A stretch of 64,000 nucleotides of DNA from Narthecium ossifragum (Eukaryota > Streptophyta > Magnoliopsida > Dioscoreales > Nartheciaceae), in assembly GCA_963920575.1 (NCBI GenBank), contig OY986965.1:18306957-18370956 (forward strand), read 5' to 3'. Within the stretch, counting starts at the first letter, position 1; each line of letters opens with the position of its first letter. Positions 1-59,958 of this stretch are shown piece by piece. A program made the translations under genes and the position numbers. Under the pieces are notes generated by a model. The model did not search any database. It saw only the letters and a program-made list of their open reading frames with translations, and had not been told where the DNA came from.

Positions 1-438
1 GGTTCGATCGATCGGACCATGTTCAACCAAAAAATACATGTTCTGTCACGATTCTGCATAGTCCGATCGATCGGACCCTGCGTGTCGGATCGCTCGGACT
101 GTTCAGCTTATTACTGTTCTGCCATCCAGACTGCGCCATCGGTACTAAAATTGCCGTAACTTCCTCTAGGATACTCGGATTTACAAACCGTAAAATTCTT
201 CAGAATCTAGACTTCAAGAGCTTTCCAACCATATATGGCACATTATCTGGTTCTTCATGAGCTGGTACAGATTAATCTTTAAAGTTGATCCATGTACTCT
301 TTTCAGCTTCTTTTCGACTTAAGGACTTCAATTGCATCCTAAATCAAAATATAAGAATAATGAGTGTATTTAGGAACTAAATAAGCATAGGAGACTAAGT
401 ATTAAGGGATAAAAATATAACATTATGCATTCTCATCA
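1..438 (-). repeat. LTR fragment, Athila2 family (window-truncated)
   Basis: This stretch matches 30650-31028 and 38660-39048, the outer parts of the Athila2 LTRs, closely enough to align by eye, including the block beginning CATCCAGACTGCGCCATCGG. On the minus strand the LTR begins TGATGAGAATGCATAATG at 438. No polypurine tract follows at 439, so this is a solo LTR or a 5' LTR rather than a 3' LTR. The rest lies beyond the window. Confidence 0.85.
6..95. repeat. GATCGATC module array in Athila2-type LTR
   Basis: Palindromic octamers start at 6, 65 and 88. The last two (GATCGATC and GATCGCTC) start 23 bp apart, the same spacing as in the other Athila2 LTRs of this window. The array is cut by the window start. 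Confidence 0.8.
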
Positions 439-1260
439 GTATATATCCCATCCCCCTCTCCGAGCCATCTCCCATCTCCCACCCCCTTTCTCACTCTCTC
501 TTCCCTCCCAGAGCTCAAGTCTCCCGGTGACGATCCCAGCCACTAACCCCTCCCTGGGAAGCCTCTCGGACCGCCTCTACTCCGAGCCTTTGAGCTTCTC
601 GGATCGCTTCTCGGAAAGAAAGCTGACGGGGGAGGAGAAAGGTCGGCGAGTCGACGGCGAGGACCCTCGGGCTTGGCGGCAGTGAAGGTAAGCATCACGA
701 CGTCTCCCTCTTCTCCTCTTCTATTTTTTCTTCTTTCTATTTTTTTTCCTCTTTCAACACCCTCTCCGTCGAGTTCTTTGTTGGACAAGGAGAAGAACTG
801 TCCGAGGCTTTGGGCGATGACAACGACGGGGAAGAAGAAGGGGCCCGGCTCGAGTCAGGCGAGCGGCTCCCTCCTCTTCCTTCTTTTTTTTTCCTTTCTT
901 TTTTCTGCAGCCTTCGTCCTCCTAAGACCGGCGCCCGGCGTTAATGGAAGAAACCGTCGATGAGGGGAAAGGGAACCGGCGGTGAAGAGGGTTCCGGTGG
1001 CGGTAGAAGAAAGCCGACGGGGGAGAACCATCAGAGGAGGAGGGAGGCTGACGTTGCCCTTCTCCTTTTCTTTTCTCTCCTTTCTTTTTTTTCTTTTAAT
1101 CACTCTTCTCATAAAAGCCTCGACAGTGCAGGGGAGGAAGCCAAACGCTTCCGCGACAAGGTGTCGATCGGTAACGGTGGCATCGGTGTCAAGGACGACA
1201 GTGAGGAGTAGAGGGGCTGACGGTGGAGCGCCGGCGACGGTGTAGAAGGTGGTCGGCGCG
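439..1260 (+). other. GC-rich exon-like block inside Helitron
   Basis: This block is CT-rich and then GC-rich, unlike the AT-rich sequence after it. It looks like a 5' untranslated or first-exon region taken from a gene: a C-rich leader, short open frames, and a plausible splice donor (AAG then GTAAGC) near 687. The translated pieces are low-complexity (Ser, Pro, Arg, Lys) and I do not recognise a family. Both strands are open for 80-95 codons only because of base composition, so I call no protein. Confidence 0.4.
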
Positions 1261-2284
1261 GCAAAGGAGGGAGAAGGTTGTTCTTCTAAATTGTTCTTAT
1301 CTTGCTTTCTTCTAAATGATTCTATCTGCTTCTCTTTAATCCTGTTAGTATTGTAGATTCAAAAAGAAATCCAGAAAATATTGTTCAATCATTTGATATT
1401 GTTATCTAAGTCTCTTCTATATATGTATTTGCTAAATCATTTTTCTCTTTCAATATCATCGATCTCCTCATGTAGCTGCTCATGGCTATTTCTACATCCG
1501 ATAGCTATAGCTGAAGTACCATGATCTGCTCATGTTTTAGCCCAATTTTGCAAAATGGAAACTTTGGCATGGAAGGTTTGGATTTTATTACCCTTGGAGC
1601 AAATATATTCAGTTGGACGAGCTACTTTAAGAATTAGCAGCTTCTGTTCTGTCGCTAAAGGGATGCCTGCAATCTAAGCAACAGGCATGTGAAAAGCTTC
1701 CCTTCATGTCTATTAAACTTATTTGTCAAATTCGATACTAAATTTGTTTGTCCTATTTGTTGTCATGATAATCTAGGCCTGTCTTATATTTCCTATTTAA
1801 CTTCTTTCCCCTTGATATGAGAATATACCGTGATCTGATCTTTTTCCCCTTCCTTTGGTACCTTAATGGATGCTTTTTTCTGTCGATGCAGTTTTTAAAG
1901 GGATTTAACACACAGTAATTACTGTTAGTGCATGAACGTTGGATTGAAATGCAGTAATTATGTTGTTGGATTTGTTAGTCGTGATTTAATTGACATGCTG
2001 AAAATGATGGGTGTGTGTATGTTGTCTTGCTCTTCCTAAGAAGAGATCGATCATGCATGCTGTTGTTAATGGATGGAGAATCTATTGACTGATGGAAATA
2101 AAGGCTGGAGCATATTGTTCGTACATGGCTCTATATGCTAAATATGTTTCTTCATCCTCTTTAAGCTTTACATCTTATCTAGCTAGCTCTATACTCTGCC
2201 TTTCCCTTTATTTGTTCCTCATACTTTCTTTTTCTCTTATAGATGCCAATTTCTTTACTGTAACATATATAGATGAATGCTATT

Positions 2285-2478
2285 AGGACCTACATTTCCT
2301 AATAGCATAACACTATTTCTGTCTCGAATTATTAGGAATTTTTATGGATCTAACCTTCAGACTATAGTGATTGGAGCGGGCGATGAGACATTGAGATTTT
2401 GGAATGCTGATGCTAGGACTTACATTTCCTAATAGCTTAACAACAGTAAAACATTGGATCTAACCTTCAGACTATGTT
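2285..2478 (+). repeat. Imperfect tandem duplication around captured exon
   Basis: The phrase with CTACATTTCCTAATAGC and, further on, GGATCTAACCTTCAGACTAT occurs twice, at about 2285-2366 and 2415-2478. Only the first copy is followed by the WD40-coding sequence. The second has the acceptor-like TTCAGACTAT and then unrelated sequence. Confidence 0.6.
2358..2411 (+). pseudogene. Captured exon fragment of a CDC20/FZR-type WD40 gene
   Basis: One frame reads QTIVIGAGDETLRFWNAD. This is nearly the blade sequence that plant FIZZY-RELATED/CCS52 and CDC20 proteins carry near their C terminus (TGAGDETLRFWN). These are WD40 activators of the anaphase-promoting complex. Only about 18 codons are present. 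They follow a pyrimidine-rich stretch ending in CAG, so the piece probably begins at an exon edge. It is a captured remnant inside the Helitron and not a working gene. The motif is distinctive, but whether the donor was FZR or CDC20 cannot be told from this length. Confidence 0.65.
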
Positions 2479-5684: not shown

Positions 5685-8081
5685 TCAGCCAGGTTTGTAT
5701 GGTTGTAATGCTTCAATGGGTGCGAAGACCTCCTTTGCTCTCTTATAACTATGCAAGTCATCCTGCACCATCTTTAAATCCGCTTTCAATGTAGTTTTCA
5801 CTTGCTCCTGCCTGAAATTTGAGAACATCATTGAATCTACAATATCTATTGAGAAGCAATCAAAAGAGTTTGAAGAATAGGACATAGACTCAAACACTTT
5901 AAATTCAACAGTTTCACCTAAAACTGTCATGCTAAGCTTACCATCCTTCACATTAATTATAGTTTCAGTGGTAGCCTTGAATGGACGTCCTAGCAAAATA
6001 GGTAACTTTCTATCATTCAACGGTGCATCATCCATATCCAATATCACAAAATCAGCAGGGATAATTAACTTATCAACTTGTACTAAGACGTCTTCTACAA
6101 TGCCTAATGGATATTTAATTGAACGATCTGCAAGTTGTAGAGACATAGTAGTAGGTTTTAATTCACCCACATCTAATTGACGGAAAATAGAGTAAGGCAT
6201 CAAATTAACGCTAGCTCCTAAGTCAAGCATTGCCTCCCCTATTTTTGTATCACCAACAGTAATATTAATATTAAAACTCCCTGGATCCTTAAGCTTGGGT
6301 GGAAGCTTCCTTTGTAGCACCGCGCTAGCCGTCTTTGAAACCATCACCTTTTCATGAGGTTCATACTTTCGTTTAGAAGTACGTAGTTCCTTGAAGAACT
6401 TTGAAAAGGCTGGCATTTTCCTAATCACATCAAGCAATGGTAAGTTCACATTAACATTAGTTAGAATATCATAAATTTCAGAATAAGACTTATCCATTTT
6501 GGCTTTCTTCAGGCTGCCTGGAAAAGGAATTGGCGGCACATATGGTGGGGGAGTGTTTTGACGAACGTCCGGATTTGAAATTGCTCTCTTTCCATGCTCA
6601 GAAGAAGATGTGGCCAGCGGTGGCCTCTTCGAGGGCTCTTCCCTCTCGACTGCCTCAATTTTATCAACACTACACATATCAGTAACTTCAGCATTAATAT
6701 TATTATCAATTATCTTACCTGAACGAAGAACAGTAACTTCGTTGGCTTGCTCAGGTTGGCTTGGAAATCTGCCTGGAACATGGGCTCGTACAACATCTGC
6801 AAGCTGTCCCACTTGAACTTCTAACTTCCCAATAGATGCTGCAACATTCTTCAATGCGGCATCATGTCGAGCAATTGCCGAATCTTGTTGTTCCATCCTT
6901 GAGTCTACTTTATGCAGAAAAGCTAACATAGTCGCTTTCAAAGACGACTTAACAGGTGGGTTAGACTGATTAGCAGAAGGTATACTAGCATTAGCATTAT
7001 TTTTCCATGAAACATTCGGATGCTCCCTCCAACCAGGATTATAATTATTTGCATAAGGATCAAATCTAGGTCTCGGGTTATAAGCATTCATCAAATTAGC
7101 TTGTTCTTGCACATATTCAGGAAATTCACTACCAAAAGGACATGAATCAAACCTATGACCAACAATATTGCAAATTGAACAAACCTCAACCGGTTTTGCT
7201 TGTGTGGACATTATCGCGTCCATCTTCTTATAGAGGGCTGCGATTTGCCTTGCCAAATCGTCGTTCTGGTTCAGCTCATAGATGCCTCACGCCTTATTCC
7301 TCGTGTCTCTCTGCTGCGAGTTTGATCCTAGCATCTCATAAATTTCGTACGTCTCTGGTGGTGTCCTTTTGAACATCGCTCCACCTGCAGCATTATCTGC
7401 CATAATCTGACAAGAAAGATTTAGTCCATCATAGAAATATTGCATCTGATTTTCTAAAGAATAATTTTGATGTGGACATTGCATCAAAAGCATCTTAAAT
7501 CTATCCCATGCTTCATGGAATGGTTCTCAATCAGATTGCTGAAAATTTGGAATTTGCCTTTTCAAGTTAGTAGTCATGGCATGAGAATAAAATTTACTAA
7601 CAAACTTGTTATAAATTGCATCCCAAGTAGTTAGTGATCCAGGAGGCTACGACATCAACCATCTCTTAGCTTTATCTTTCAGAGTATAAGGAAAACATCG
7701 CATCCTCAGTTGATCTTCAGTAATGGCACCAAGAGGAAAAGTCTGAATAGTAGCGTAATAATCTTTTACAAACGTTAGTGCATCCTCAGAAGGTAAACCA
7801 TGAAATTCAGGAAGCATAGAAAAATGTAGATTTTTAAGTTCATAATTCCTAGCCTCTGCAGGTAACGTAATGCACGAAGGTGATGTAGAAATAGAAGGTC
7901 TCACGTACTCCTCTAAAGGACATAAATTGTTATTAAGCTCCATCTCCTCTTGTTCCTCCTCTTAAACTCCTAGATTTGATGTGGACATGCTGTCTTTGTT
8001 AGATTTCTTCTTCCAACTAATTAGATCTACTTTATCATTCAAGGGCAACAACTTTTCTTTCCATGATCGGCGACCTTGCAT
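5685..8081 (-). pseudogene. Athila1a gag-protease polyprotein, decayed and lacking pol
   Basis: The frame starts at the ATG at 8081, matching the intact relative at 60908. Frame-preserving alignment shows four nonsense codons in gag: TAA at 7962-7964, TAG at 7647-7649, TGA at 7527-7529 and TGA at 7287-7289. The rest, 7256 to 5685, is open for 523 codons. It holds a CCHC knuckle (CSICNIVGHRFDSC), a spacer rich in Asn and Pro, and a retroviral-type aspartic protease with DLGASVNLMP, where DLG replaces the usual DTG, as is common in Athila. The frame ends PYKPG-stop where the autonomous relative continues towards reverse transcriptase. This was a structural protein precursor with a processing enzyme; in this copy it is broken. 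Confidence 0.9.
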
Positions 8082-8106
8082 TCACTACTAATAAACTCTA
8101 ATCAAA

Positions 8107-8124: not shown

Positions 8125-8130
8125 AAAACT

Positions 8131-10902: not shown

Positions 10903-12179
10903 TTCGGCTTCCTCCTCCCACTTCTACCCCCTCTGCCACTTCTGCCATCACCTATGCTTGGACCATCCTCTGTTGTTCCAGAGCCTCCAATTGTGGTGTT
11001 GCTCTCCATAGCTACACTGTTAGGACCTGCACCATCAGCTGGCTTTGGTTGTGGAGGCTTCTTGCAGGATCTCTTGTTGTGACCCCATTCCCAGCACCTT
11101 GTGCACTTCACTGAGGTGTTCCTTCTCCTCAGCTTGGATGGGTGTCTTTCCTCTTCAGGTGGCCTTATCCTGAGCTTCTTTGGCCTCCCAGGCTGCCTCT
11201 TATATGGAGGTGGCAGTATGGGCTCTCCAACTGCCTTGGGCCAAAGTAGTTGACCATTGACTGGATGAATGAAAGATAAATAACACTGCTGGAACCTCTC
11301 TTTCTTATACCAGGCATCCACATAGTCCTCAACGTTATGGCTTTCCTTGTTGATGCATCCATTTGCATGTTGGCAAGGGAGGCCACTGATCTCCCATAGT
11401 CTGCAACTGCATTGGTGTGTTGCCAGGTTCACAGCAAACTGGTCATATGGGGATCTGACCTCATACTCCATATCTCCAGCCCATGTTACTATGTAGTCCC
11501 TTGTCAGTCTTGACAACATATCTAGCTTTTTCTTCTTCACATTTTGACCAACTTGGCCTACAAGATTTTTGGCCAGCTCCCTTGTAAGGGCCTTAATGTA
11601 TAATTCCGGGCTTTTATGTAAAATGGAGTGCTTTTGGCATAATTTCTTGTTTTTGCGGGGGGTTTTATGCAAAAAAACCACCCCTCCTTCTAGAGGAATC
11701 GAGAGCCCTTTTCCTCGATTCTTTCTTCTTCTCTCTCAACCCTCTTTTCTTTCACTCGTTGGCTGCCAACCCGGGAGAGAGAGGGAGTGAGATCGGAGTG
11801 AGATGGAGAGAGAGATCGAGAGGGAGATGGAGAGGAAGCAAGGTCGCCGGCGCCGGAGAAGGAAGGAAAGGAAGGGAGGAAGAAGAACCGGGAAAAAGGG
11901 GAGGTGGGCATCGCCGGAAATTGGTAGATCCAGTGGGGTTCTCGCCGGATTTCGTCCTCCTCTTGTCTCAGGTGAGCTCCCACCTTCTTTCCCATCCGAT
12001 CTCTTCCTCTTTTAGGCTTTTTCGTTGGGTTTTTTTTGGGAGCTCCGCGGTTCTCCGGCAATGGGTCGCCGGAGAAGATGCTGCGGACGGCGTTGGGGAC
12101 CTCCCTCGGCGACTGCAGCGCTGGGGAAGGACCCCCGTGGTCCGGGGCCATCTTTCTCCGAGCCCTGTCCGGGCATTTC

Positions 12180-12217
12180 CCATGGCAGGGGATCCTTGAT
12201 CCTCCTCCCTGCCATGG
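12180..12217. other. Inverted repeat in LTR (11-bp arms)
   Basis: CCATGGCAGGG at 12180-12190 pairs with CCCTGCCATGG at 12207-12217. The repeat is kept exactly in the 3' LTR at 15910-15947. Confidence 0.75.
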
Positions 12218-12566
12218 TTCCCGGCAAGGTTCCGGCCGGCCATTCCCTAGCCGTGGCCGCGCAACCTTCTTAGGGATCCGGTGCTAGGGTCAGCACACGG
12301 ATTCTCTTCTCCTCTGGTGGTTTTCTCGATGCTTGAGTACCCCTGTTCTGGAGGTTTGATGGAGCTCCGGCTTGAGCTCCGGCAGGCCACCAACCAGGCT
12401 CTTGCCATCCTCCAGAACAACAGCTTCTCGAGAAGGGGGTAAGGGAGCAGCTGGACTTTACTCCCGGAGGGGTCTGCACCATGGTGCAGGTCACCGACCT
12501 GACAAACTCTCCGGGGGCCAAGGGTGAACTCCGGCGATCTTCTTGAGGAAGAAGATGACCCTGTGC

Positions 12567-12609
12567 GGTGCATGTTAGCTCACACGCACAGTGTCTGCTA
12601 ACATGCACC
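12567..12609. other. Inverted repeat in LTR (13-bp arms)
   Basis: GGTGCATGTTAGC at 12567-12579 pairs with GCTAACATGCACC at 12597-12609 across a 17-bp loop. It is conserved at 16297-16339. Confidence 0.8.
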
Positions 12610-13220
12610 AGAGCCTTCAGATGGCCGTAGTTGAGCTCTCGATGCCTATTTTCGACGTTTCTCGCGTCATTCGACCTGCTTTTCGAGCGCTAGCTATTGC
12701 TAATAGTTTTAATTGTGTTTTAGGGCTCTAACGGACCGTAGTCTTGTTTATCGTATTTTAGGCGATCGTTTGAGTGGCCGTCAAGTGTCGGAGCGCGGCA
12801 TGGACCCCCGGGCTCAGGGATTGCTCGCTGACTGTCCTTTTGAGGTAGGAGTTACCTCCTAGGATTTGTGTGAATGTATGCAATGTTTTGTTATGTATGA
12901 TATATAATTGTGTTGATGCTTTGATATATGTTTGTATGTATTTTATTAATCTTGTGTGTATATGTGATGCTATGTCATGCTATGATGATTTCCTGTATGT
13001 ATGTGTAATGAGATTAATTGACCAAGTTATTGATTGATTGATTATTTATGTGATTTGTGCATACATGCTAGGAATGTCAGGTCTGTCTTAGGACATGGAT
13101 TGTGGTTGGGTCTAGTCAGGTCATATAGCTAGACTAGTCAGAGTTTAGGGACTATGATGATGACTTGACTTGAGGATTTGATCTGATTGAAGATCTGACT
13201 TGAGGATTTGATCTGATGGA

Positions 13221-13500
13221 GGATGTGTTGCCTATACTAGTGTACTGAGGCCTGTATAGAGTCTATAGGGGTCTGGGCGAGCGTTGACGGCCGGACGCGG
13301 CGACTGTGCGTGTAAGACTTACCCAGACTAGCCAGACCATACTAGGATCAGTAAGCTAGTATAGGATGTTGTACCTATACTAGTATACTGGGGCTGGGTA
13401 TAGAGTCTATAGGGGTATGGGCGAGCATTGACGGCCGGACGCGGCGACTGTGCGTGTAAGACTTACCCATACTAGCCAGACCATACTTGGGCAGTATACT
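13221..13500 (+). repeat. Direct duplication inside LTR, ~142-bp period
   Basis: Two units, starting GGATGTGTTGCC at 13221 and GGATGTTGTACC at 13363, share a nearly identical core (GACGGCCGGACGCGGCGACT). The second LTR has the same pair at 16951-17230. Confidence 0.75.
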
Positions 13501-13958
13501 AGGATAGGTGGGTGTACACCAGTGTCTTAGTTGGTGACTCCTACTGGGCTTTAGAGCTCATTCGTGTTAGGTTTTGGTTTTTGTGCAGGAGGACCTATGG
13601 GTAGGCCAGAGACCAGTGCAGGCCATGGAGGTCCTGTCTCAGGAGGAGTTTTTCTGTATTTATGTATCTTTATTTATGTATGAAAAGCATGTATATGTTG
13701 GAAATGAAAGAATTATGTATTATAAATTGCGACTGAAATATCATGTATATTATTTGAATTGATGTGGGCGTATGTGCCCTAGTGATGGTGAATGATTGTA
13801 AAGAGATAAATAGTTGTGATTAAATGTTATAAAGCTATGTTTTATTAGTGATTGAAATGTTGTAATAGTGATCTCACGTCCCCGTGCCCAAGGGTCATGC
13901 TGAAATGTTAAATAAATCTTTGGGACATTTTTATATTTAATTGGGGCGGGGCGTGACA

Positions 13959-15312
13959 GGTTGGTATCAGAGACTAGGCGGTAGGTCCTAGGGTTAGGTA
14001 GGAAGGGTGACAGTATAGATAGGTAGGAATGGGCTAGATAGAGTCTTTAGATGCATCATTGCATGCATGATTGTTCCTAGTATAAATCTTTTGAAGGTTG
14101 AATATATGCTTGTATATCACTAGATTATGAATTTGAACTAGAGAATTTTCTCGTTTGAAGTTAATTGTTTGTTTTGATCGGTTCTTGTGCTGAAGTTCTC
14201 CATTCGAGATTGATTATTGTTGCTCAAACCTTATCATCCAAGTTTGGTATTTAATTATTTTCTTTTCATGGAAGATTCATGGTTGATTGAGATCTATTGT
14301 GGAGCTTTCTAAACCTGATTTTTTTTTTTTGTTTTTGGATGTCCACGAAGCTTGTATGTTTTTCCTTCAAGCATAACTTTGGTTAAGGTGTGAAAGAAGT
14401 TTCACCTCATATTGTTTCTTGAAATAAAGCATAGGCTTTGAGGATTGGTTGTTTTCCAGAGGATGTCCCTCCAATTATGTTTGGAAGTTGTAAATTGGGT
14501 TTGTTTTTCAATGGCAGTTCTTGCGGAAATTGAAAGAAAGGTTGAATCTTGCCTGATGTTTTTCTCCAAATTTGTTGGTCTTTCGAGTGGTTGCACCTTT
14601 AACGTGTGTTCTGCATGTTTTTGTGCTGCTTTTTGATAAGGTTAGTGTAAAAGTTTGAGAAAAAGGAGTTTCATGCTTGGTTGTTTCGCAATTGAATTGT
14701 AGTACTTGGAGTCAAAAGACTCGATCTTGATGGTTATCTGCGGTTGATATAAATTGTTTTACACGTGTTGGTCTTGTTGCAATATGAATAATAGTTGATT
14801 GTTATTTCTTTTACGAGTTGGAGACAGCTTATGGTTTTCTTATTGGCTTTCGTTAAATCGGATGTTCTTGCCGAGATTTTAGCGGAGATTTAGTATTGCT
14901 GGCTCTTTATTATTAATATGGTGATTTATTTCGGAAGTAATTGTAGTCTTGAACTGAGTTAGATTTTCGTAGATCTATACTAGAATTTGTTTGGTTGTTT
15001 GTTATGTTCTATGTATGATCTGTTTGCTGTGTGCGGGTTCGCCCGATTGGTTGTTGCCTTTTGTTTGGTGGCCGTAGGGGCCAGACGCTTGTTCTTGTGT
15101 TGTGGCTAGGGGTCTTGTGATGTGTGCCTGTTCGGACTAGTGTGTTTTTGGTGAGCGTGTAGTCGGACCCTTAGTAGGATGTGAGGGCGTAGGACCGGGT
15201 GAGTGTCGGTCTTCTACTTGGTGTGTCGAGGATGCGAGCTTGAGTTTGGTGATTTTCGTTTTTCGTGCTCGAGTCGAATTTCGGGGACGAAATTCCCTTA
15301 AGGAGGGGAGGT
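13959..15312 (+). other. Internal region of the Tekay-type element: primer site, noncoding body, polypurine tract
   Basis: TGGTATCAGAG at 13962-13972 is complementary to the initiator tRNA-Met 3' end. The body (13975-15270) has no supported coding; short frames at 14402-14636 are unremarkable. AAGGAGGGGAGG at 15300-15311 is the polypurine tract. This is far too short for gag-pol. Confidence 0.85.
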
Positions 15313-17688
15313 TGTAAGGGCCTTAATGTATAATTCCGGGCTTTTATGTAAAATGGAGTGCTTTTGGCGTAATTTCTTGTTTTTGTGGGGGGTTTTATGC
15401 AAAAAAACCACCCCTCCTTCTAGAGGAATCGAGAGCCCTTTTCCTCGATTCTTTCTTCTTCTCTCTCAACCCTCTTTTCTTTCACTCGTTGGCTGCCAAC
15501 CCGGGAGAGAGAGGGAGTGAGATCGGAGTGAGATGGAGAGAGAGATCGAGAGGGAGATGGAGATGAAGCAAGGTCGCCGGCGCCGGAGAAGGAAGGAAAG
15601 GAAGGGAGGAAGAAGAACCGGGAAAAAGGGGAGGTGGGCATCGCCGGAAATTGGTAGATCCAGTGGGGTTCTCGCCGGATTTCGTCCTCCTCTTGTCTCA
15701 GGTGAGCTCCCACCTTCTTTCCCATCCGATCTCTTCCTCTTTTAGGCTTTTTCGTTGGGTTTTTTTTGGGAGCTCCGCGGTTCTCCGGCAATGGGTCGCC
15801 GGGGAAGATGCTGCGGACGGCGTTGGGGACCTCCCTCGGCGACTGCAGCGCTGGGGAAGGACCCCCGTGGTCCGGGGCCATCTTTCTCCGAGCCCTGTCC
15901 GGGCATTTCCCATGGCAGGGGATCCTTGATCCTCCTCCCTGCCATGGTTCCCGGCAAGGTTCCGGCCGGCCATTCCCTAGCCGTGGCCGCGCAACCTTCT
16001 TAGGGATCCGGTGCTAGGGTCAGCACACGGATTCTCTTCTCCTCTGGTGGTTTTCTCGATGCTTGAGTACCCCTGTTCTGGAGGTTTGACGGAGCTCCGG
16101 CGTGAGCTCCGGCAGGCCACCAACCAGGCTCTTGCCATCCTCCAGAACAACAGCTTCTCGAGAAGGGGGTAAGGGAGCAGCTGGACTTTACTCCCGGAGG
16201 GGTCTGCACCATGGTGCAGGTCACCGACCTGACAAACTCTCCGGGGGCCAAGGGTGAACTCCGGCGATCTTCTTGAGGAAGAAGATGACCCTGTGCGGTG
16301 CATGTTAGCTCACACGCACAGTGTCTGCTAACATGCACCAGAGCCTTCAGATGGCCGTAGTTGAGATCTCGATGCCTATTTTCGACGTTTCTCGCGTCAT
16401 TCGACCTGCTTTTCGAGCGCTAGCTATTGCTAATAGTTTTAATTGTGTTTTAGGGCTCTAACAGACCGTAGTCTTGTTTATCGTATTTTAGGCGATCGTT
16501 TGAGTGGCCGTCAAGTGTCGGAGCGCGGCGTGGACCCCCGGGCTCAGGGATTGCTCGCTGACTGTCCTTTTGAGGTAGGAGTTACCTCCTAGGATTTGTG
16601 TGAATGTATGCAATGTTTTGTTATGTATGATATATAATTGTGTTGATGCTTTGATATATGTTTGTATGTATTTTATTAATCTTGTGTGTATATGTGATGC
16701 TATGTCATGCTATGATGATTTCCTGTATGTATGTGTAATGAGATTAATTGACCAAGTTATTGATTGATTGATTATTTATGTGATTTGTGCATACATGCTA
16801 GGAATGTCAGGTCTGTCTTAGGACATGGATTGTGGTTGGGTCTAGTCAGGTCATATAGCTAGACTAGTCAGAGTCTAGGGACTATGATGATGACTTGACT
16901 TGAGGATTTGATCTGATTGAAGATCTGACTTGAGGATTTGATCTGATGGAGGATGTGTTGCCTATACTAGTGTACTGAGGCCTGTATAGAGTCTATAGGG
17001 GTCTGGGCGAGCGTTGACGGCCGGACGCGGCGACTGTGCGTGTAAGACTTACCCAGACTAGCCAGACCATACTAGGATCAGTAAGCTAGTATAGGATGTT
17101 GTACCTATACTAGTATACTGGGGCTGGGTATAGAGTCTATAGGGGTATGGGCGAGCATTGACGGCCGGACGCGGCGACTGTGCGTGTAAGACTTACCCAT
17201 ACTAGCCAGACCATACTTGGGTAGTATACTAGGATAGGTGGGTGTACACCAGTGTCTTAGTTGGTGACTCCTACTGGGCTTTAGAGCTTATTCGTGTTAG
17301 GTTTTGGTTTTTGTGCAGGAGGACCTATGGGTAGGCCAGAGACCAGTGCAGGCCATGGAGGTCCTGTCTCAGGAGGAGTTTTTCTGTATTCATGTATCTT
17401 TATTTATGTATGAAAAGCATGTATATGTTGGAAATGAAAGAATTATGTATTATAAATTGTGACTGAAATATCATGTATATTATTTGAATTGATGTGGGCG
17501 TATGTGCCCTAGTGATGGTGAATGATTGTAATGAGATAAATAGTTGTGATTAAATGTTATAAAGCTATGTTTTATTAGTGATTGAAATGTTGTAATAGTG
17601 ATCTCACGTCCCCGTGCCCAAGGGTCATGCCGAAATTTTAAATAAATCTTTGGGACATTTTTATATTTAATTGGGGCGGGGCGTGACA
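15313..17688 (+). repeat. 3' LTR of the Tekay-type element
   Basis: These 2376 bp are nearly identical to 11583-13958 (offset exactly 3730, no length difference). Confidence 0.95.
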
Positions 17689-20852: not shown

Positions 20853-21959
20853 TTAAATAAATATGATCCAATAACATAGAATGATTCAGTTAGGCTACAT
20901 CGGTTCCTTAGCAAAGGGATTAGTCACTCATGTTCATAAAAACAACCAAGATATTCATAAGAAAGAAAATAAAGAAAAACCCTAGATCTTCGTGCGGTCT
21001 TCTCCCTTCTTTTCGGCCTTCAAAACTCCTCCAATAGTGTTGGCTAACCTCCCTCATAAGTCTTGGACGATTTCCTTAAATAGGGGTAAGAAATCCTAAT
21101 TTTGCTTCAGCCTTTGGATTAAATCTGGTCCGTTCGTTTTCAAGTCGTCCGACAAAGGATCGATCTTCTTAAGGATAAAGATCAATCTTCTTTCTTTTGT
21201 CAATTTTCGTAACCTGGTTCGCTCCGACTAAGATCGATCTCTTTAAGGAAAGGATCGATCTTCTTTCTCCGTATACTAGCTTCCTTCCAAAACGCCCAGG
21301 TTCAGATCGATCTTTTCAAGGAAGAGATTGATCTCTTTCATCAATTGTTGACTACGCCCATAGAAGATCGATCTTTCTAGTAAAGAATATCGATCTTTTA
21401 TTCCAACTTTCTTATTTTCGCTCACGGTCGATCTTCGTATCGACCCTGCGAAGTATTTTTCTTGACAGAAGCTGACGGTCGATGCCACGGTCGACCGTGA
21501 GAATTTTTGAGCGCGACGGTCGATCCGACGATCGACCATGGGTCTTTTTCATCTCTGCATACATAAGAGATCGATATTTTATTTAAGGAAGATCGATCTT
21601 TTATTTTCTGCATCTTTCTTCTGCTATTCTGCCCTGCGCACTGGTACGAAAAACACTGTAACTTCCTCTGTGCAGCTCCAAATCCCGAACCGTAAAATTC
21701 CCCCGAAACTAGACTTCAAGATATTTCTAAAGGTGTATGGCACATCGTCTGGTTCTTCATGAGTAGGTACAGTTTAATCTTTCAAGTTGATTCATGTAAT
21801 CTTTTCAGCTTCTTTGCTCCTTTTTCCTGCATTTTCCACACAACTATGTGAAGCATCATATAAATATAAAAATAGTAATAAAGATGTTGATTAAGGATAA
21901 TAATCTAGCAATTGAGATGGTTATAAGGCTGTTCAGAGTGCACTTTCATGCACTCATCA
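20853..21959 (-). repeat. Athila1a 5' LTR, outer part (beyond MULE)
   Basis: It begins with the second copy of the MULE target duplication (20853-20861). On the minus strand the LTR starts TGATGAGTGCATG at 21959. A TATA-like CTATTTAAGG lies near 21070. The GATCGATC array (21158-21598) lies upstream of it in the element's orientation. Confidence 0.85.
21158..21598. repeat. GATCGATC module array in Athila1a 5' LTR
   Basis: Pairs of GATCGATC or one-mismatch versions start at 21158/21180, 21232/21253, 21305/21326, 21366/21388 and 21569/21591, so 21-22 bp apart. Their outer context is mostly AAGATCGATCTT. Between 21425 and 21535 are related GGTCGATC and CGGTCGACCG palindromes. Confidence 0.8.
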
Positions 21960-28044: not shown

Positions 28045-28153
28045 CCTTCTCGAGGTAACTTTTGTCCTGTCTTCTAGTGTAGCTGTTTCTTTTGTTTCCG
28101 AGCCCTACCTTTATCGAATCTCGGGACGATATTTCTTTTAAGGGTATTAGGAT
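28045..28153 (+). other. 3' end of a Tekay-type internal region with polypurine tract
   Basis: CCCTACCTTTATCGAATC then CGGGACGATATTTC and TTTTAAGGGTATTAGGA, immediately before TGTAAGGACC, is the conserved junction of Tekay/Del elements. The rest of that element's internal region is missing. Confidence 0.65.
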
Positions 28154-28364
28154 GTAAGGACCCGTCCCTCTATTCAAGTGGCTCGCTGTGGACCACAAGG
28201 GTAATGTGGTAAATTGCGCCTTGTCGGTTTGTTTCACACTAGCGTGTGCACACACTATCCATGTTTGTGTTAATGTTTGGCTAGAATGATTATTGAGACC
28301 CGGGATCGAAAGATCCGGGCTTGGGCTTGAGTTCTTGCCCAAGTTTAGCTTTCATCACAAATAA

Positions 28365-33976: not shown

Positions 33977-33977
33977 T

Positions 33978-39048: not shown

Positions 39049-39897
39049 TGCGCATAGCATGCATTGTGTTGTGCATTAGTTGCATCTGTGTAGGGCGCTG
39101 ACGATGGGTTGTTCGCTGATCCGGGTCTTTCGGGTAGTCCGGATCTAGCTCTAGGACCGTTGCGAGTAGCTTGGTCCGGGACTCGATTTGTAGTATTCAG
39201 TCATTTTTGATGGTAGGGTTAGATGACCTGAATACCTGTTATTTGATGTTTAGAGGTCGTGTCAGCCTCGAGTCGAGTCCTGAGGTGTAGCCGGTGTCCG
39301 GCAGTCTTTGACTCTCTGAGTGGGAGGTGTGCCCACTCAGCAGTGCCTTGTCCCACCAGTAGTGTTCACGGTCCTGCTGTGAGTCCGCAGTGCTGGGAGC
39401 TTGCGTTCTGAGACATCCGGTGGGGTTATGGGACCTCTCTATACATCCAGACTTTGTTTGGGAGCGACACTGTTGTGTTCCCTCCCTTGTAAGTATCCTA
39501 GTGTAGTGTCCCTGCTGAGCTTAGTACTCACTCCTACCCGGGCTGCGTTTTGTAGGTGCTGGCGCTAGCTCTTCTTCGGTCGCCCCTACCGGGCCGGTGT
39601 TTGGTGACGTGGCGGCGTCTGGCGGTGCTTGACGAGCGGCGATCTCAGTTTTACCTTTTTGTTATAGATAGTCTCCTACGGGAGTGGTAAATGTATATTT
39701 TCCCTGTTTTGAGATTTTGTATTATATTTCAATTCAGTCTTTGAGGTTTGTGAATGATTGTATAATAAAGGATGATTAAGAATTGCTAGGGTAACCACTA
39801 CGATTAGAGGGAAACCTCACCAAAATTTCCGCAGTAGGTTAGGTTCCGGTTTGCGTCGCCCGGCTCGGTTGAACCTACGTGGATCGGGGCGCGACAG

Positions 39898-40031: not shown

Positions 40032-40397
40032 TGTGAGGCCCGCTGGGTCTACCGTGGGACAAGATGCCTGCGCCTGGAGGGCGGGGCTGAGTCGGGTAGC
40101 CGGGTAAGCAATCCCACAACGCCTAGGTATGGTCCGGGGTTCGATATAAGTATATAGTAATCCCTTAATAGACACAACGCGTTTTAAAGCCGTGCTGACA
40201 GTGATCCGTCAGAAAACTCCAAGGTTAAGCGTGCTCGCCTTGGAGTAGTCACATGATGGGTGACCTACTGGGAAGTTTTTCCAGATTTCTACGGTGAGTC
40301 AAAAGCGGACAATATTGTATCGGGTGGGCCCTCGGGTGGATCCTGGTCGGACCGGGAGCCCGCGGGCCGGGGCCCAGTGGAGGGCCGGGGCGTTACA
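40032..40397 (+). repeat. Cassandra LTR 1 with 5S-like segment
   Basis: It runs TGTGAGGCCC to GCGTTACA. The 5S-like segment lies at about 40210-40275: CCAAGGTTAAGCGTGCTCG resembles the internal A-box region of plant 5S rRNA, and GATGGGTGACCTACTGGGAA the C-box region. Confidence 0.9.
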
Positions 40398-40470
40398 GTA
40401 TGGTATCAGAGCCGGTTCTCAGCCGGAAATTGTGCCAGCGAGGACGCTGGGCCTCCAAGGGGGGGTGGAT

Positions 40471-40809
40471 TGTGAGGCCCGCTGGGTCTACCGTGGGACA
40501 AGATGCCTGCGCCTGGAGGGCGGGGCTGAGTCGGGTAGCCGGGTAAGCAATCCCACAACGCCTGGGTATGGTCCGGGGTTCGATATAAGTATATAGTAAG
40601 CCCTTAATAGACACAACGCGTTTTAAAGCCGTGCTGGCAGTTATCCGTCAGAAAACTCCAAGGTTAAGCGTGCTTGCCTTGGAGCGGTCCCGAGATGGGT
40701 TACATACTGGGAAGTTTTCCCAAATTTCTGCACAGGTGGGGCCCTCGGGTGGATCCTGGTCGGACCGGGAGCCCGGGGCCGGGGCCCAATGGAGGGCCGG
40801 GGCGTTATA
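40471..40809 (+). repeat. Cassandra LTR 2, with ~28-bp deletion
   Basis: It is like LTR 1 but lacks the segment GTGAGTCAAAAGCGGACAAT and following bases after the 5S-like part (40648-40713), and its last bases read GTTATA instead of GTTACA. Confidence 0.9.
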
Positions 40810-40881
40810 GTATGGTATCAGAGCCGGTTCCCAGCCGGAAATTGTGCCAGCGAGGACGCTGGGCCTCCAAGGGGGGTGGAT

Positions 40882-41248
40882 TGTGAGGCCCGCTGAGTCT
40901 ACTGTGGGACAAGATGCCTGCGCCTGGAGGGCGGGGCTGAGACGGGTTGCCGGGTAAGCAATCCCACAACGCTTGGGTATGGTCCGGGGTTCGATATAAG
41001 TATATAGTAAGCCCTTAATAGATACAACGCGTTTTAAAGCCGTGCTGGCAGTGATCCGTCAGAAAACTCCAAGGTTAAGCGTGCTCGCCTTGGAGCGGTC
41101 CCGGGATGGGTGACCTACTGGGAAGTTTTCCCAGATTTCTGCGGTGAGCCAAAAGCGGACAATATTGTGTCGGGTGGGGCGCTCAGGTGGATCCTGGTCG
41201 GACCGGAAGCCCGCTGGCCGGGGCCCAGTAGAGGGCCGGAGCGTTACA
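40882..41248 (+). repeat. Cassandra LTR 3 with 5S-like segment
   Basis: It is full length, with the 5S-like segment at about 41060-41125. It is closest to the 5S consensus: CGGTCCCGGGATGGGTGACC. Confidence 0.9.
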
Positions 41249-42468: not shown

Positions 42469-44864
42469 ATGCAAGGTCGCCGATCACGGAAAGAAAAGTT
42501 GTTGCCCTTGAATGATAAAGTAGATCAAATTGGTTAGAAGAAGAGATCTAACAAAGATAGCCTGTCCACATCAGATCTAGAAGTTCAAGAGGAGGAACAA
42601 GAGGAGATAGAGCTTAATAACAATGTATGTCCTTTGGAGGAGTACGAGAGGCCTAGTATTTCTACCTCACCTTCGTGCATTACGTTACCTGCAGAGGCTA
42701 GGAATTACGAACTTAAAAATCTACATTTTTCTATGTTTCCTGAATTTCATGGTTTACCTTCTGAAGATGTACTAACGTTTGTGAAAGATTATTATGCTAC
42801 TATTCAGACTTTTCCTCTAGGTCGCATTACTGAAGATCAACTGAGGATGCGATGTTTTCCTTACACCTGAAGGATAAAGCGAAGAGATGGCTGATGTCGT
42901 TGCCTCCTGGATCACTAACTACTTGGGATGCAATTTATAACAAGTTTGTTAGCAAATTTTATTCTCATGCTATGACTACTAACTTGAGAAGGCAAATTTT
43001 AAATTTTCAGCAATCTGATGGAGAACCATTCCATGAAGCATGGGATAGATTTAAGATGCTTTTGATGCAATGTCCACATCATAATTATTCTTTAGAAAAT
43101 CAGATGTAATATTTCTATGATGGACTAAATCTTTCTTGTCAGACTATGGCAGAAAATGCTGCAGGTGGAGCGATGTTCAAAAGGACACCACCAGAGGCAT
43201 ACGAAATTTATAAGATGCTAGGATCAAACTCGCAGCAGCGGGACACAAGGAATAAGGCGAGAAGCATCTATGAGCTGAACCAAAACGGCGATTTGGCAAG
43301 GCAAATCGCAGCCCTCAACAAGAAGATGGACGCGATGATGTCCACACAAGAAAAACCCGGTTGAGGTTTTTTCAATTTGCAATATTGTTGGTCATAGGTT
43401 TGATTCTTTTCCTTCTGGTAGTGATTTCCTGAATATGTGCAAGACCAAGCTAATATGATGAATGCTTAAAACCCGCGACCTAGATTTGATCCTTATGCAA
43501 ATACTTACAATCCTGGTTGGAGGGAGCATCCGAATTTTTCATGGAAAAATAATGCTAATGCTAGTATGCCTTCTGCTAATCAGTCTAACCCACCTGTTAA
43601 GTCGTCTTTGGAAGCGACTATGTTAGCTTTTATGCAGAAAGTAGACTCAAGGATAGAACAACAAGATTCGGCCATTGCTCGACATGATGTGGCATTGAAG
43701 AATGTTGCAGCATCCATTGGAAAGTTGGAAGTTCAAGTGGGACAGCTTGCAGATGTTGTACGAGCCCATGTTCCAAGCAGATTTCCAAGCCAACTTGAGC
43801 AAGCCAACGCAGTTACTATTCTTCGTTCAGGTAAGATAATTGATAATAATACTAATGTTGAAGTTACTGATATGGGTCGTGATGATAAAATTGAGGAAGT
43901 CGAGAGGGAAGAGCCCTCGAAGAGGCCACCGCTGGCCACATCTTCTTCTGAGCATGGAAAGAGAGCAATTTCAGATCCGGAGGTTCATCACAACACTCCT
44001 CCACCATATGTGTCGCCAATTCCTTTTTCCAGGCCGCCTGAAGAAAGCCAAAATGGATAAGTCATATTCTAAAATTTATGATATCCTATCTAAGGTTAAT
44101 GTGAACTTACCATTACTTGATGTAATTAGGAAAATGCCAGCCTTTCCAAAGTTCTTCAAGGAAGTACGTACTTCTAAACGAAAGTATAAACCACAAGAAA
44201 AGGTGATGAATTCAGAAACGGCAAGCGCTGTGTTACAAAGGAAACTTCCACCCAAGCTAAGGATCCAGGGAGTTTTAACATTAGTATTACTGTTGGTGAT
44301 ACAAAAATAGGGGAGGCAATGCTTGATTTAGGAGCCAGTGTTAATTTGATGTCTTACTCTGTTTTTCGTCAGTTAGGTGTGGGTGAACTAAAACCTACTA
44401 CTATGTCTCTACAACTTGTAGATCGTTCAATTAAATATCCATTAGGCATTGTAGAAGACATCTTAGTACAAGTTGATAAGTTAATTATCCCTGCTGATTT
44501 TCTGATATTGGATATGGATGATGCACCGTTCAATAATAGAAATTTATCTATTTTGCTGGGTCGTCCATTTATGCCTACAACTGAGACTATGATTAATGTG
44601 AAAGATGGTAAGCTCAGCATGACAATTTTAGGTGAAACTGTTGAATTTAAGGTGTTTGAGTTTATGTCATATCCTTCAAACTCTTTTGATTGCTTCTCAA
44701 TAGATGTTGTAGATTCATTGATGTTTTCTAATTTCAGGTAGGAGCAAGTGAAGACTACATTGAAAGCGGATTTGAAGATGGCGGAGGATGACTTGTACAG
44801 TTATGAGAGAGCAAAGGAGGTCATGGCACCCCTTGATGCATTACAGCCAAACAAACCTGGTTGA
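42469..44864 (+). pseudogene. Athila1c gag-protease, many lesions
   Basis: The frame starts at ATG 42469, as in the intact relative. Lesions include TAG near 42532, a one-base deletion near 42868, TAA near 43107, frame changes near 43360-43560 and 44050, and TAG near 44740. Recognisable parts are the gag domain (LHFSMFPEFHGLPSEDVLTF), the proline-rich spacer and the protease (MLDLGASVNLM at 44319). It ends NKPG-stop at 44864, directly before the TAAATAAAGCGCTGGG leader of the hairpin. It is not functional. Confidence 0.88.
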
Positions 44865-46111: not shown

Positions 46112-46702
46112 TGATGAGTGCATGAAAGTGCACTCTGAACAGTCTTATAACCATCTCAATTTCTAGATTATTATCCTTAATCAACATTTTTATTACTATT
46201 TTTATATCTATATGTTGCTTCACATAGTTGTTTGGAAAATGCAGGAAAAAGGAGCAAAGAAGTTGAAAAGATTACATGGATCAACTTAAAAGATTAAACT
46301 GTACCTGTTCATGAAGAACCAGATGATGTGCCATATATGGTTGGAAAGCTCTTGAAGTCTAGTTTCTGTAAAATTTTACGGTTCGTGATTCTGAGTTTCT
46401 TAGAGGAAGTTACAGCAATTTTAGTACCAATGGCGCAGTTTGGATGGCGAAACAGTAAATACTCAGGAAAGAAAGATTGATCCTTCTACCTAGTAGGATC
46501 GATCCTTCTACACGCAGACCTGACAGAACGCATACTTTTCAGATGATCTCAGTAGGATCGATCCTACCATGCATCCTCCTGTGCAGGATCGATCCTACAC
46601 CCATGGAAGGATCGATCCGACTCGAGCGTAGCCAGAAATTGAAGATTTTGATGTAACAGATCAATCCTACACCTATGGAAGGATCGATCCTACTTTCCCT
46701 CG
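46112..46702 (+). repeat. Athila1c 3' LTR, truncated
   Basis: It starts TGATGAGTGCATG after the polypurine tract GGTTGGGGGGTG and matches the first ~590 bp of 59172-60858. It ends where Tekay-type sequence begins. Confidence 0.85.
46475..46689. repeat. GATCGATC module array in Athila1c LTR
   Basis: Pairs start at 46475/46497 (22 bp), 46587/46610 (23) and 46659/46682 (23), plus a copy at 46556. Typical context is TAGGATCGATCCTA. Confidence 0.82.
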
Positions 46703-57483: not shown

Positions 57484-58004
57484 ATTGTTGATTGATTTTC
57501 TCGTTACACTTTTTCTGGGCTTAGTTAGATTTCTCGTTTTCTTATTTTTCCTTTTCTTTATTTCATTACTTTTTAGGAATTTTTCATACAATTCTCAGAA
57601 TTATTGCAACTTTGAAGTGGAATTTTCTTGGAATAGAATTACTTGTGTTGCTCGCATGGACGATCAATCGGCCAGACCACCGATCCATCGTCTGGAAACT
57701 GATCGATTGGCCTCCCAGCTGATCAATCGTCCACCTGTCAGGTAAGTTTTTTAATCTGAAACTTTTAATTCAGTTGTGGTGTTCCATGGTTTTCTCATCT
57801 CCCCCGAAAAATATGTTTTCTTTTTCTTTTTTATCTCTAGGGTGTGCATGAACCTTTATGCAATGTAGAAGAACCCAAAGCTTTTCAATGACACCTTTTG
57901 ACCCTATGATTGAAAGCACTCTTAGAGTCATTAGTAAGGAACGATTTCGCCAAAGAGCTGAAAAACATGAAGCTCCTGAGCTACCTCTTGATTCATTCTA
58001 AACA
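57484..58004 (+). other. Athila3 leader
   Basis: This is noncoding. At 57660-57740 a cluster of related palindromes (GATCAATC, GATCGATT, GATCAATC) resembles the GATCGATC modules but with shorter spacing. A short open frame (57443-57745) is not a known protein. Confidence 0.5.
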
Positions 58005-59171
58005 ATGAACCCAACACAAGGAAACGATGATGGAAACGGTGGGGGAAACGGGGGCCACAATAACAATAGAGAAGGCCCAATTAAGAATCACTTTTTACCT
58101 GAACCTTACACCTATGATTCTTATATCAACCCACCTGCCATTAAAACTATACATTATGAGATTAAGCTTAACTGGATTACTGCTTTACCTTCTTTTTATG
58201 GGCGTGAGAATGAGGACCCTTATCGACACATTGCTAGTTTTATGGAAATCCTTTCCATGTTCAAACTCGAGCACTTTAATGATGATGCCTTTAGACTTAA
58301 GTTTTTCCCTTCGTCTTTGAAAGACGAGGTTAAACATTGGTTTCAAACCTTAGCTCCAAATTCGATTTCAACATTGGACCAACTTCAGGATGTTTCCTTC
58401 AAAAATATTTCCCTGTCATTAAAACTCAAAAATTATCGTATCATGATTATCTCTTTTATGCAAAATGAGGATAAGATATTTCATGAAGCATGGGAAATAT
58501 TTAAGGATCTACTTAGAAAGTGTCCCCATCATGAGGTACCTCATTCGTTTTAAGCAGCTAGCTCATTTGTTTTACAACGGTCATAATGATCGTTATAGGA
58601 CAATGGTCAAAGCATGCTGTGGGGGTGTTGTTCTTAGTAAGTCTTGAACTGATCTTTTGGAAATGTATCACAAAGTTGCTGAAAATTCATAACATAATAT
58701 CTCAGTTTCTATGAGTCGGTCTACCACTATTCGTAATTCTCAAGAATTCATGAAATTTTTGAATTCCAAAGTCTCTCCGCATAAGTAGCCCTCCTAACTA
58801 AAGATTTGAATCAACTAAAAACAAGTCAAACTCTTGGTCAATCTTTTGCTCATTCACCGTTTCAGACTAAACTTGAGACATGTTCCCTCTGCTCTAGTCC
58901 TCAACATCATATCACTAATTTTCACTTGGCCCCCAACTTCCCCGACTTTGTTGAGGAACACTTCAATGTAACATATGCATTTTCTAAACCTCAACACAAT
59001 CCTTATTCCAATGCCTATGACCCTGGTTGGAGAAATCATCCTGACGTTAGTTGGATACCACCACAGTCAGGAACATTTCTAGGGCAGAGTAATACCACTA
59101 AGTCTTCCTCTGCTTTTTCATACCCTCCTAAACCTCAAGTCACACAAAATTATGGGTACCCTCCACGTTAT
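58005..59171 (+). pseudogene. Athila3 gag, broken
   Basis: 58005-58553 holds a Gly/Asn-rich start and the gag domain (WITALPSFYGRENEDPYRHI and LKFFPSSLKDEVKHWFQTL). 58806-59171 holds the region just after it (CSLCSSPQHHITNF, a damaged knuckle whose last Cys is missing, then NPYSNAYDPGWRNHPDVSW). Frameshifts and stops lie between them (58465-58800). The frame is cut by the Athila1b LTR. Confidence 0.85.
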
Positions 59172-59606
59172 TGATGAGTGCATGAAAGTGCACTCTAAAT
59201 AGCCTTATAACCATATCAATTGCTAGATTATTATCCTTAATCACCATCTTTATTACTATTTTTACATCTATATGTTGCTTCACATGGTTGTTTGGAAAAT
59301 GTAGGAAATTGGGGCTAAAAGAAGCTGAAAAGAGTATATAGATCACCTTCAAAAATTAATCTATACCTGTTCATGAAGAACCAGATGATGTGCCATATAT
59401 GGTTGGAAAGCTCTTGAAGTCTAGATTCTGGAGAATTTTACGGTTCATGATTCCGAGTTTGCTAGAGAAAGTTACGGCACTTTTAGTACCGATGGCGCAG
59501 TCTGAATGGCAGAACAGAAAATAAGCTGGAAGTCCGATTGATCCGCCGATCAATCGGACTACGCAGAAACGTGACAGAACATATATTTTTCAGGCATAAG
59601 GTATCC

Positions 59607-59958
59607 GATCGATCCCTCCATCCCTCCTAAGGGGTCCGATCGATCGGACACCTAAAGTCCGATCGATCGGACTTGGGAATAGCCAAAAACAGCGGATTTT
59701 TGCGCAACCGATCGATCCAACACCCATACTCCGATCGATCGGACTTGGGAATTAAAGATTGACAGAACGTATGCTTTCTAGAGGAACACAGTTCGATCGA
59801 TCCATCCATCGATCGGACTCGGGAATAGCCAGAGACGGAGGATTTTTACGAAACCAATCGATCCGACACCCTTAGTCCGATCGATCGGACTCAGGCGAAG
59901 CCAAAAATTGAAGTTTTTAATGAGAGGGATCGATCCAACACCCTGGGAGGGATCGATC
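59607..59958. repeat. GATCGATC module array in Athila1b LTR
   Basis: Pairs start at 59638/59661, 59710/59733, 59856/59879 and 59928/59951, each exactly 23 bp apart. Further copies are at 59607, 59795 and 59811. Typical context is TCCGATCGATCGGA, and spacers contain ACACC. The array ends ~65 bp before the TATA box. Confidence 0.88.

Follow-up and report, generated by a model that had tools for sequence, protein, structure and literature searches.

The subject of this analysis is a 64,000-nucleotide stretch of the genome of Narthecium ossifragum (GenBank assembly GCA_963920575.1, contig OY986965.1, forward-strand positions 18,306,957 to 18,370,956), hereafter the window, in which the long terminal repeats (LTRs) of several retrotransposons carry arrays of the palindromic octamer GATCGATC arranged as pairs with start-to-start distances of 21–23 bp. 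The arrays are borne by a Ty1/copia element, by Athila-type Ty3 elements, and by a chromovirus-type (“Tekay-type”) Ty3 element. The names “Athila” and “Tekay” and the primer-binding-site names are labels that we presume to apply; the domains support only a Ty3-type gag and protease, a copia gag, and an integrase with SH3_Tf2-1.

Retrotransposons that carry the octamer arrays

The Ty1/copia element lies on the minus strand and is gag-only. Its 3′ and 5′ LTRs correspond to repeat spans at 31984–32774 and 33978–34788, respectively, which form a 93.2% repeat, and the 5′ LTR is followed by TGGTATCAGAGC, a primer-binding-like site. Three open reading frame (ORF) pieces at 33126–33979 (minus strand) encode gag, as indicated by a CCHC knuckle and by PF14223 matches, of which one exceeds its cut-off. 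The LTRs are 0.8 kb each and the ∼1.2 kb between them is too short for a full pol. The array at 32447–32673 comprises four 22-bp pairs separated by 41, 50, and 40 bp in plus-strand order, and the octamer scan places its sister array at 34461–34687. The original prediction counted eight copia pairs at 22 bp; the spacing is as given, but these are really four pairs seen in both LTRs of one element.

The Athila-type elements are assigned to Ty3 by PF03732 gag and aspartic-protease matches; for one of their ORFs, the closest proteins among the best 120 of 2292 matches are from Prunus and align along almost the full query at no more than 54% identity. In Athila2, on the minus strand, the 3′ LTR (29551–31027) and the 5′ LTR (37527–39047) form a 90.6% direct repeat, and their arrays, at 30468–30683 and 38488–38703, have the same intervals of 23, 59, 31, 23, 49, and 23 bp in element order. 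The 23-bp spacing claimed for Athila2 is correct, but the two complete LTRs are sisters from one element. An Athila2-like fragment at 1–95 adds a 23-bp pair at 65/88. The Athila1c array (46475–46689) has intervals of 22, 59, 31, 23, 49, and 23 bp. In Athila1b, on the plus strand, the U3 (unique 3′) part of the LTR extends from 59172 to 60033, just beyond TATAAATAGG, with TGGCGCCGTTGCCGGGGA at ∼60865; its array (59536–59958) has intervals of 12, 59, 31, 23, 49, and 23 bp, followed by a second 23, 49, 23 block. The Athila1a array (21158–21598) contains pairs at 22, 21, 21, 22, and 22 bp and a 12-bp inverted pair, GGTCGATC/GATCGACC (21518/21530). Such 12-bp inverted pairs, at 21518–21537 (GGTCGATC..GATCGACC) and 59536–59555 (GATTGATC..GATCAATC), are about one helical turn under the usual spacing.

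The 5′ part of the chromovirus-type LTR occupies 28153–29550 on the plus strand, where it is interrupted by Athila2, whose insertion is flanked by a 5-bp repeat, TGCGC, at 29546–29550 and 39049–39053. The start of this LTR is placed by homologous sequences elsewhere in the genome: the L086 and L099 alignments to the window break off at 28152/28153, and that of L086 to L091 breaks off at the matching base, whereas L087 and L093, in which the LTR is preceded by element sequence, align as far as 28071–28073. Directly upstream of the homologous LTR, L087 has Integrase_H2C2 and SH3_Tf2-1 matches, as well as a sub-cut-off rve (integrase-core) match; the domain scan of L087 gave no chromodomain match. 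Given the Integrase_H2C2 and SH3_Tf2-1 matches, this third kind of LTR is Ty3, of chromovirus type. It carries two arrays, one at 28365–28461 with two 22-bp pairs and one at 28833–29114 with pairs at 21, 22, and 21 bp and single sites. The pair spacings originally reported for the window are present as given, except that one of the six Tekay-type pairs fails, five having at most one mismatch per site. As predicted, paired octamers recur in LTRs of unrelated families, Ty1/copia and both Ty3 types.

Number and spacing of the octamers

In the octamer scan of the window, GATCGATC is present 59 times exactly and 44 times with one mismatch, compared with a first-order Markov expectation of 0.65 and 21.6, respectively. 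A partner with at most one mismatch lies 21–23 bp from 50 of the 59 exact octamers; those at positions 6, 2045, 28894, 30594, 35349, 38614, 46556, 59607, and 59795 are partnerless. Distances between successive octamers peak at 21, 22, and 23 bp (n = 4, 15, and 13), and distances of 31, 40–41, 49–50, and 59 bp also recur. When one LTR per family is considered, 24 pairs at 21–23 bp are observed versus 4.4 ± 2.0 for random placement of the same number of sites per array, a null in which non-overlap was unenforced in the 15-site Athila1b array. Among one-mismatch octamers, GATTGATC or GATCAATC accounts for 9 of 24 inside the arrays and for 3 of 20, all GATCAATC, outside them. These are the products expected if a methylated CpG is lost, which fits decay of putatively silenced copies. 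A set of four degenerate octamers (GATCAATC, GATCCATC, GATCGATT, and GATCAATC) spaced 19–20 bp apart at 57662–57728, upstream of a further gag ORF at 58002, resembles a shorter-spaced variant of the arrays.

The spacing extends to the whole 379-Mb genome, in which exact GATCGATC pairs number 15,484 at 21 bp, 33,313 at 22 bp, and 19,361 at 23 bp, a total of 68,158 versus 288 at 27 bp; reversed-pattern controls number 0, 3, 7, and 26 at 21, 22, 23, and 27 bp. The genome-wide counts cover these four spacings and are lower bounds for repeats; other spacings were judged from 24 sampled stretches of 10 kb at preset positions on contigs C1–C11. The sampled stretches contain 163 octamers (679 per Mb). 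For 149 of them the nearest other octamer is no more than 150 bp away, 99 belong to a pair at 19–24 bp, and an array, defined as three octamers within 300 bp, is found in 13 of the 24 stretches. The comparison words TCGATCGA, CATGCATG, and CTAGCTAG occur 17, 11, and 6 times in the same samples, and the shifted words ATCGATCG and CGATCGAT are also common (54 and 53). Because of these genome-wide and sampled counts, a spacing of 21–23 bp that is no commoner than octamer density predicts, which would have been fatal to the original claim, can be set aside. A triple-octamer pattern was also found in 6 viral and 67 prokaryotic stretches, and none of these 73 matches the window (blastn, E 1e-3).

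Position of the arrays relative to the TATA box

In element orientation, the distance from the last octamer to TATAAATAGG is 63 bp in copia, 63 bp in Athila2, and 64 bp in Athila1b, and the last site of the first chromovirus array is 23 bp ahead of TATAAA (28485). Repeated short sites upstream of a TATA box are thereby found in these four kinds of LTR. The original prediction placed the arrays of the copia, Athila1, and Athila2 LTRs just upstream of the TATA box, which is borne out for copia, Athila2, and Athila1b but not for Athila1a, where only TATTTAA is present at about +75 from the last octamer, nor for Athila1c, the sequence of which diverges soon after the last octamer.

Constraint on the octamers and their intervals

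Comparisons between Athila subfamilies, in which a site present in either sequence counts, give 3/56, 6/72, and 2/56 differences in octamers versus 39/156, 38/144, and 49/140 in the interleaved bases (Fisher p = 8.6e-4, 2.0e-3, and 1.2e-6). In three chromovirus-type LTRs, where sites are taken from one sequence at a time and gaps are scored as changes, octamers change at 3.4–17.3%, bases within 30 bp at 27.6–37.8%, and the remaining LTR at 13.8–17.5%, with p ≤1.2e-4 in all six counts (three sequence pairs, sites from either side). The site definition, which allows up to one mismatch, biases all of these comparisons toward apparent conservation. Sister LTRs have diverged only since insertion; pooled, they show no significant difference (4/120 in octamers versus 20/323 in interleaved bases, p = 0.34). 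The intervals 59, 31, 23, 49, and 23 bp are identical across Athila2, Athila1b, and Athila1c, and the first pair of the array is spaced at 23, 12, and 22 bp, respectively, the Athila1b pair being 11 bp, or about one helical turn, shorter. Between lineages the octamers hardly change, whereas neighboring sequence diverges by 25–38%; in this they behave like constrained, putative binding sites.

A start of ∼180 bp, ∼80% identical between L086 (7369–8172) and the window (28153–28330), is common to the chromovirus-type family, and the L086 array differs from that of the window in its TG|CA type and its runs at 21 bp. From this sequence comparison, arrays appear to turn over faster than LTR ends.

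Symmetric flanks of the octamer

The symmetry of the sites extends beyond the octamer. Across 187 sites in 29 arrays, a set that counts sister LTRs and related copies, flanking bases are complementary across the site above chance, mainly at ±1 (107/187), ±2 (100/187), and ±4 (112/187). The flank symmetry score of 461/935 is lowered to 330 ± 15 by swaps between arrays and kept by swaps within arrays (465 ± 11); symmetry is therefore a property of the array. Individual arrays favor individual flank types: AG|CT in five of the seven sites per copia LTR, CC|GG in four of nine in Athila1b, TG|CG or TG|CA in 7 of 13 in L086, and AT|AT in L103, with Athila2 and several others mixed.

At ±1, flanks also tend to change in concert. 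Among 61 homologous site comparisons drawn from seven sequence comparisons, both ±1 bases changed in 26, and in 18 of these the two bases are complementary in either sequence, compared with 3/18 and 5/17 for controls in which the partner position is shifted by one and by two; at ±2 to ±5 the effect is much weaker (6/17, 3/18, 2/5, and 1/10). L103, a copia relative as assigned by its U3 only, resembles copia in 65 of 83 alignment columns of the proximal U3/promoter and shares six of seven intervals, the exception being 50 for 40 bp. Both ±1 bases are switched at six of eight sites between the two, with complementarity in each. L103 also has a tandem periodicity of 71–72 bp. Array-specific symmetric flanks that move together suggest either a group of related proteins that recognize one core but differ in the flanks they prefer, or homogenization by duplication, and both may act.

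Likeness between the copia and Athila U3 regions

According to the original prediction, LTRs of Ty1/copia and Ty3/gypsy elements have no further sequence in common, so that common descent could not account for the arrays. This is not supported, given an AATC 37 bp beyond the last octamer, TATAAATAGG near +63, and a collinear alignment of octamer-masked copia and Athila1a. Such likeness raises the question of origin. A single U3 promoter module could have been passed between Ty1 and Ty3 elements by recombination or template switching and have diverged down to its functional sites, an origin that we regard as possible, if tentative, and that is compatible with the octamers being binding sites. 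The masked copia and Athila1a arrays are collinear over four pairs with a score of 48 (null maximum 34, 0/500), and scores of 34 (1/500) and 33 (3/500) are obtained for copia with Athila2 and Athila1b, but nothing is seen with Athila1c (19, 327/500). The Athila1a array is closer to copia (48) than to Athila1c (37), Athila2 (33), or Athila1b (29), and ∼330 bp upstream of the array Athila1a is 89% identical to Athila1c; a copia-near array under Athila1c-like upstream sequence looks like a swapped module, as far as alignment can tell. The AATC at +37 is present in six of seven window LTRs, or four of five elements, the exception being Athila1c, and TATAAATAGG is at +63 (copia, Athila2a) or +64 (Athila1b). 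Of 39 array ends examined in the sampled stretches, 13 have a TATA word, and five, four of them in L090, combine AATC at +37 with TATAAA at +63/64. A GGGCG/GAGCG/AGGCG box follows the penultimate pair by 6–7 bp in copia and Athila; in the chromovirus LTR, the box runs opposite to the element. Anchored on the last octamer, copia matches Athila2 at 40/78, Athila1a at 34/78, and Athila1b at 31/78 positions (shuffles ∼20–21), levels reached by 0, 0, and 16 of 2000 shuffles; when only the first 60 bases are compared, the p values are 0.002, 0.0005, and 0.012. Against descent from a single module, the proximal in-register match drops to p = 0.02–0.06 without the AATCC block, one alternative register among ∼40 ties for Athila1a and likewise for Athila1b, and beyond the octamers, GGCG segments, and proximal segment the likeness fades (343/3000 shuffles equal it). 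In an unanchored window scan, Athila tops the matches of copia narrowly (34 and 33 versus 31), a lead that is lost once TATA is removed, and copia is absent from the 12 best matches of Athila1a. A strong claim of common descent was not retained, the anchored 78-bp result being weakened by the unanchored scan and by removal of the AATCC block. What copia and Athila have in common is a layout of a pair, a GGGCG-like box, the last pair, 37 bp, AATC, ∼20 bp, and TATA. The likeness beyond the octamers is modest, and an exchanged module or a common grammar would both fit it.

Relation to known systems

Two features of U3 transcription-factor-site arrays of the ONSEN/Tnt1 kind are seen here as well: a short site repeated ahead of TATA, the second chromovirus array excepted, and conservation of the site between lineages in excess of its surroundings. 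The closest host-factor parallel in the available text is provided by the heat-responsive elements of COPIA LTRs (ONSEN/COPIA78 and others; Genome Biol 2016), which consist of nGAAn units for heat-shock factors (PMC5059998). Similar to the arrays described here, these are clustered short LTR-promoter sites, and in that report they serve a host factor, arose partly by proto-site duplication, and occur in several COPIA families (PMC5059998). The heat elements as described there are confined to COPIA, whereas here a CpG palindrome forms spaced pairs, tens of thousands of them, in Ty1 and Ty3 elements. Repeated U3 motifs are likewise described for tobacco Tnt1 (tandem repeats) and Retrofit (TGTAAC repeats, upstream of TATA), in the portion of the source available clade by clade, unlike the single paired palindrome common to Ty1 and Ty3 in one genome (PMC3601003).

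The target arrays of VANC proteins in VANDAL DNA transposons also keep a dense short motif, the units of which change together (PMC5735166, PMC10398659). Dense motifs in fast-diverging non-coding transposable element DNA are found here as well, given the change rates of octamers and nearby bases in the chromovirus-type LTRs (3.4–17.3% versus 27.6–37.8%). The VANC21 motif, in the available text of those reports, has one orientation, is rare outside its family, and is bound by an element-encoded protein, in contrast to the palindromic, helically spaced octamers of both superfamilies (PMC5735166, PMC10398659). Since the octamer is not limited to one family but occurs in Ty1 copia, Athila, and chromovirus-type LTRs, it falls outside the VANC kind as described in those texts.

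The octamer itself has been reported as a novel over-represented octamer of rice promoters (PMC3224587, PMC8207140, PMC6918188), once for sperm-expressed genes (PMC3224587). The octamer is the same, and it was proposed as a plant cis-element; unlike the present case, the available text of these reports describes no pairing, retrotransposons, or demonstrated binding to the octamer (PMC3224587, PMC8207140, PMC6918188). Within the open-access literature, as searched by title or abstract, no account of such an octamer array in retrotransposons was found.

Other features of the window

For snoR71, Rfam gives matches that reach or exceed the gathering score at 7462–7569, 42981–43086, 58431–58537, and 61421–61526, all four within gag-bearing Ty3 stretches and on the strand opposite gag; the snoR71 family may be partly retrotransposon-derived sequence. 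Three tandem units of ∼410–440 bp at 40032–41248, with two TGGTATCAGAGCC sites, may represent a Cassandra element with three LTRs, but Rfam gives no match there up to E 0.1. Direct repeats of 2.4 kb at 11582–13958 and 15312–17688 are 99.3% identical, contain zero exact octamers, and lie near MULE-type ORFs; the pair is a very young insertion or duplication.

Proposed role of the arrays

We consider it probable, at roughly 60%, that the arrays are U3 enhancer or promoter modules made of paired palindromic sites for putative dimeric DNA-binding proteins with a common core. A sequence-specific DNA-binding protein would probably occupy each palindromic site as a dimer. The two dimers of a pair would lie on the same face of the helix, two turns apart (21–23 bp; 12 bp in one homologous pair), and the pairs would recruit a trans-acting factor cooperatively to the LTR promoter, which the recruited factor would activate. 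Protein binding, dimerization, cooperative recruitment, and promoter activation are what we infer from the arrangement of the sites. The copia element has gag pieces only, and the factor would therefore act in trans there; most simply, it would be a host transcription factor or factor family. In the available text of one report, the plant GATA factors GATA12, GNC, and GNL bind a GATC core (PMC6918188), which makes a GATA factor a candidate binder as a lead only.

Several observations weigh against this role. The second chromovirus array (28833–29114) is not upstream of the TATA box but ∼350–630 bp downstream of TATAAA. In Athila1b-type copies of ∼90% identity, the octamers are hardly more conserved than other bases (six counts, p = 0.02–0.82), as expected of neutral copies, yet such copies lend no support, and gap openings are not consistently fewer inside the arrays than upstream. 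In the flank analysis, shifted controls at other positions reach 6/14, a one-sided change only is seen at ±1 in 21 of 61 site comparisons, and the nominal p of 5e-4 is optimistic, the seven comparisons sharing sequences and their counts being non-independent. A single protein of fixed specificity does not explain array-to-array flank differences with kept symmetry, and homogenization of arrays by tandem duplication, to which the 71–72-bp periodicity of L103 may point, could be an alternative source of array-wide flank types.

An element-encoded anti-silencing or activator protein like VANC, whose sites accumulate in non-coding transposable element DNA and are hijacked in trans, with flanks co-evolving with paralogous proteins, is unlikely: dense conserved motifs in fast-diverging non-coding sequence resemble VANC targets (PMC5735166) and the concerted flank switches fit, but the VANC21 motif, in the available text, is rare outside its own transposon family (PMC5735166), and the octamer sites span Ty1 and Ty3. 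It appears distinctly improbable that each pair acts as an inverted repeat, forming a hairpin in the RNA 3′ end or a DNA cruciform. The copia array (z = −7.7, DNA) and the Athila2 array (z = −5.6, RNA) do fold better than shuffles, although palindromic octamers alone favor folding, and in the genome list of N14 pairs the complementarity of the inner arms at positions 1–7 exceeds that obtained by swapping within clusters (15/5000). However, inner-arm complementarity in 24 window pairs (75 versus 74.3 ± 3.3 for within-family swaps) and in 65 pairs from sampled arrays and the window (256/3000) does not follow suit, the N13 list runs in the opposite direction at positions 3–6 (4975/5000) and in favor at positions 1–2 (159/5000), and the N15 list is weak (710/5000). 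With four tests of pair-specific complementarity mixed, the hairpin and cruciform were not adopted. There is very little likelihood of a mutational or assembly origin, in which slippage and quasi-palindrome correction spread the palindrome or GATCGATC is a leftover proximity-ligation junction. The periodicity of L103 fits slippage, and the Chicago junction word, in the available part of the source, equals GATCGATC (PMC5288721), but octamers are conserved against a faster-changing background, GATCGATC far outnumbers CTAGCTAG, TCGATCGA, and CATGCATG in the same samples (163 versus 6, 17, and 11) with the shifted ATCGATCG and CGATCGAT also common, and ligation junctions would not keep a fixed spacing of 21–23 bp, together with conserved intervals, at homologous positions of LTRs. 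The junction artifact was judged unlikely on the strength of the fixed spacing, conserved intervals, and octamer conservation. A practical corollary is that trimming reads at this proximity-ligation junction word, as identified in the available text (PMC5288721), would remove genuine U3 sequence here.

The reading of the arrays as paired sites for dimeric proteins can be extended, rather doubtfully, to a genome-wide lock-and-key system, in which GATCGATC would be a common core and the symmetric flanks (AG|CT, AT|AT, CC|GG, TG|CA) would be specific to the element. Related dimeric proteins of host or element origin would read both and so determine the LTR families that are expressed or that escape silencing. 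Both superfamilies would have converged on the site or stolen it, and flanks would shift LTR-wide when the partner changes.

Retrotransposon promoters are usually viewed family by family; here, one paired site is present in the U3 regions of both LTR superfamilies. At the level of sequence, this points to a common, putative DNA-binding partner that unrelated elements exploit or compete for. Should the site be read by a single factor or factor family, its removal should alter the expression or silencing of many LTR elements at once, and, if true, this would directly test how shared control of unrelated transposons comes about.

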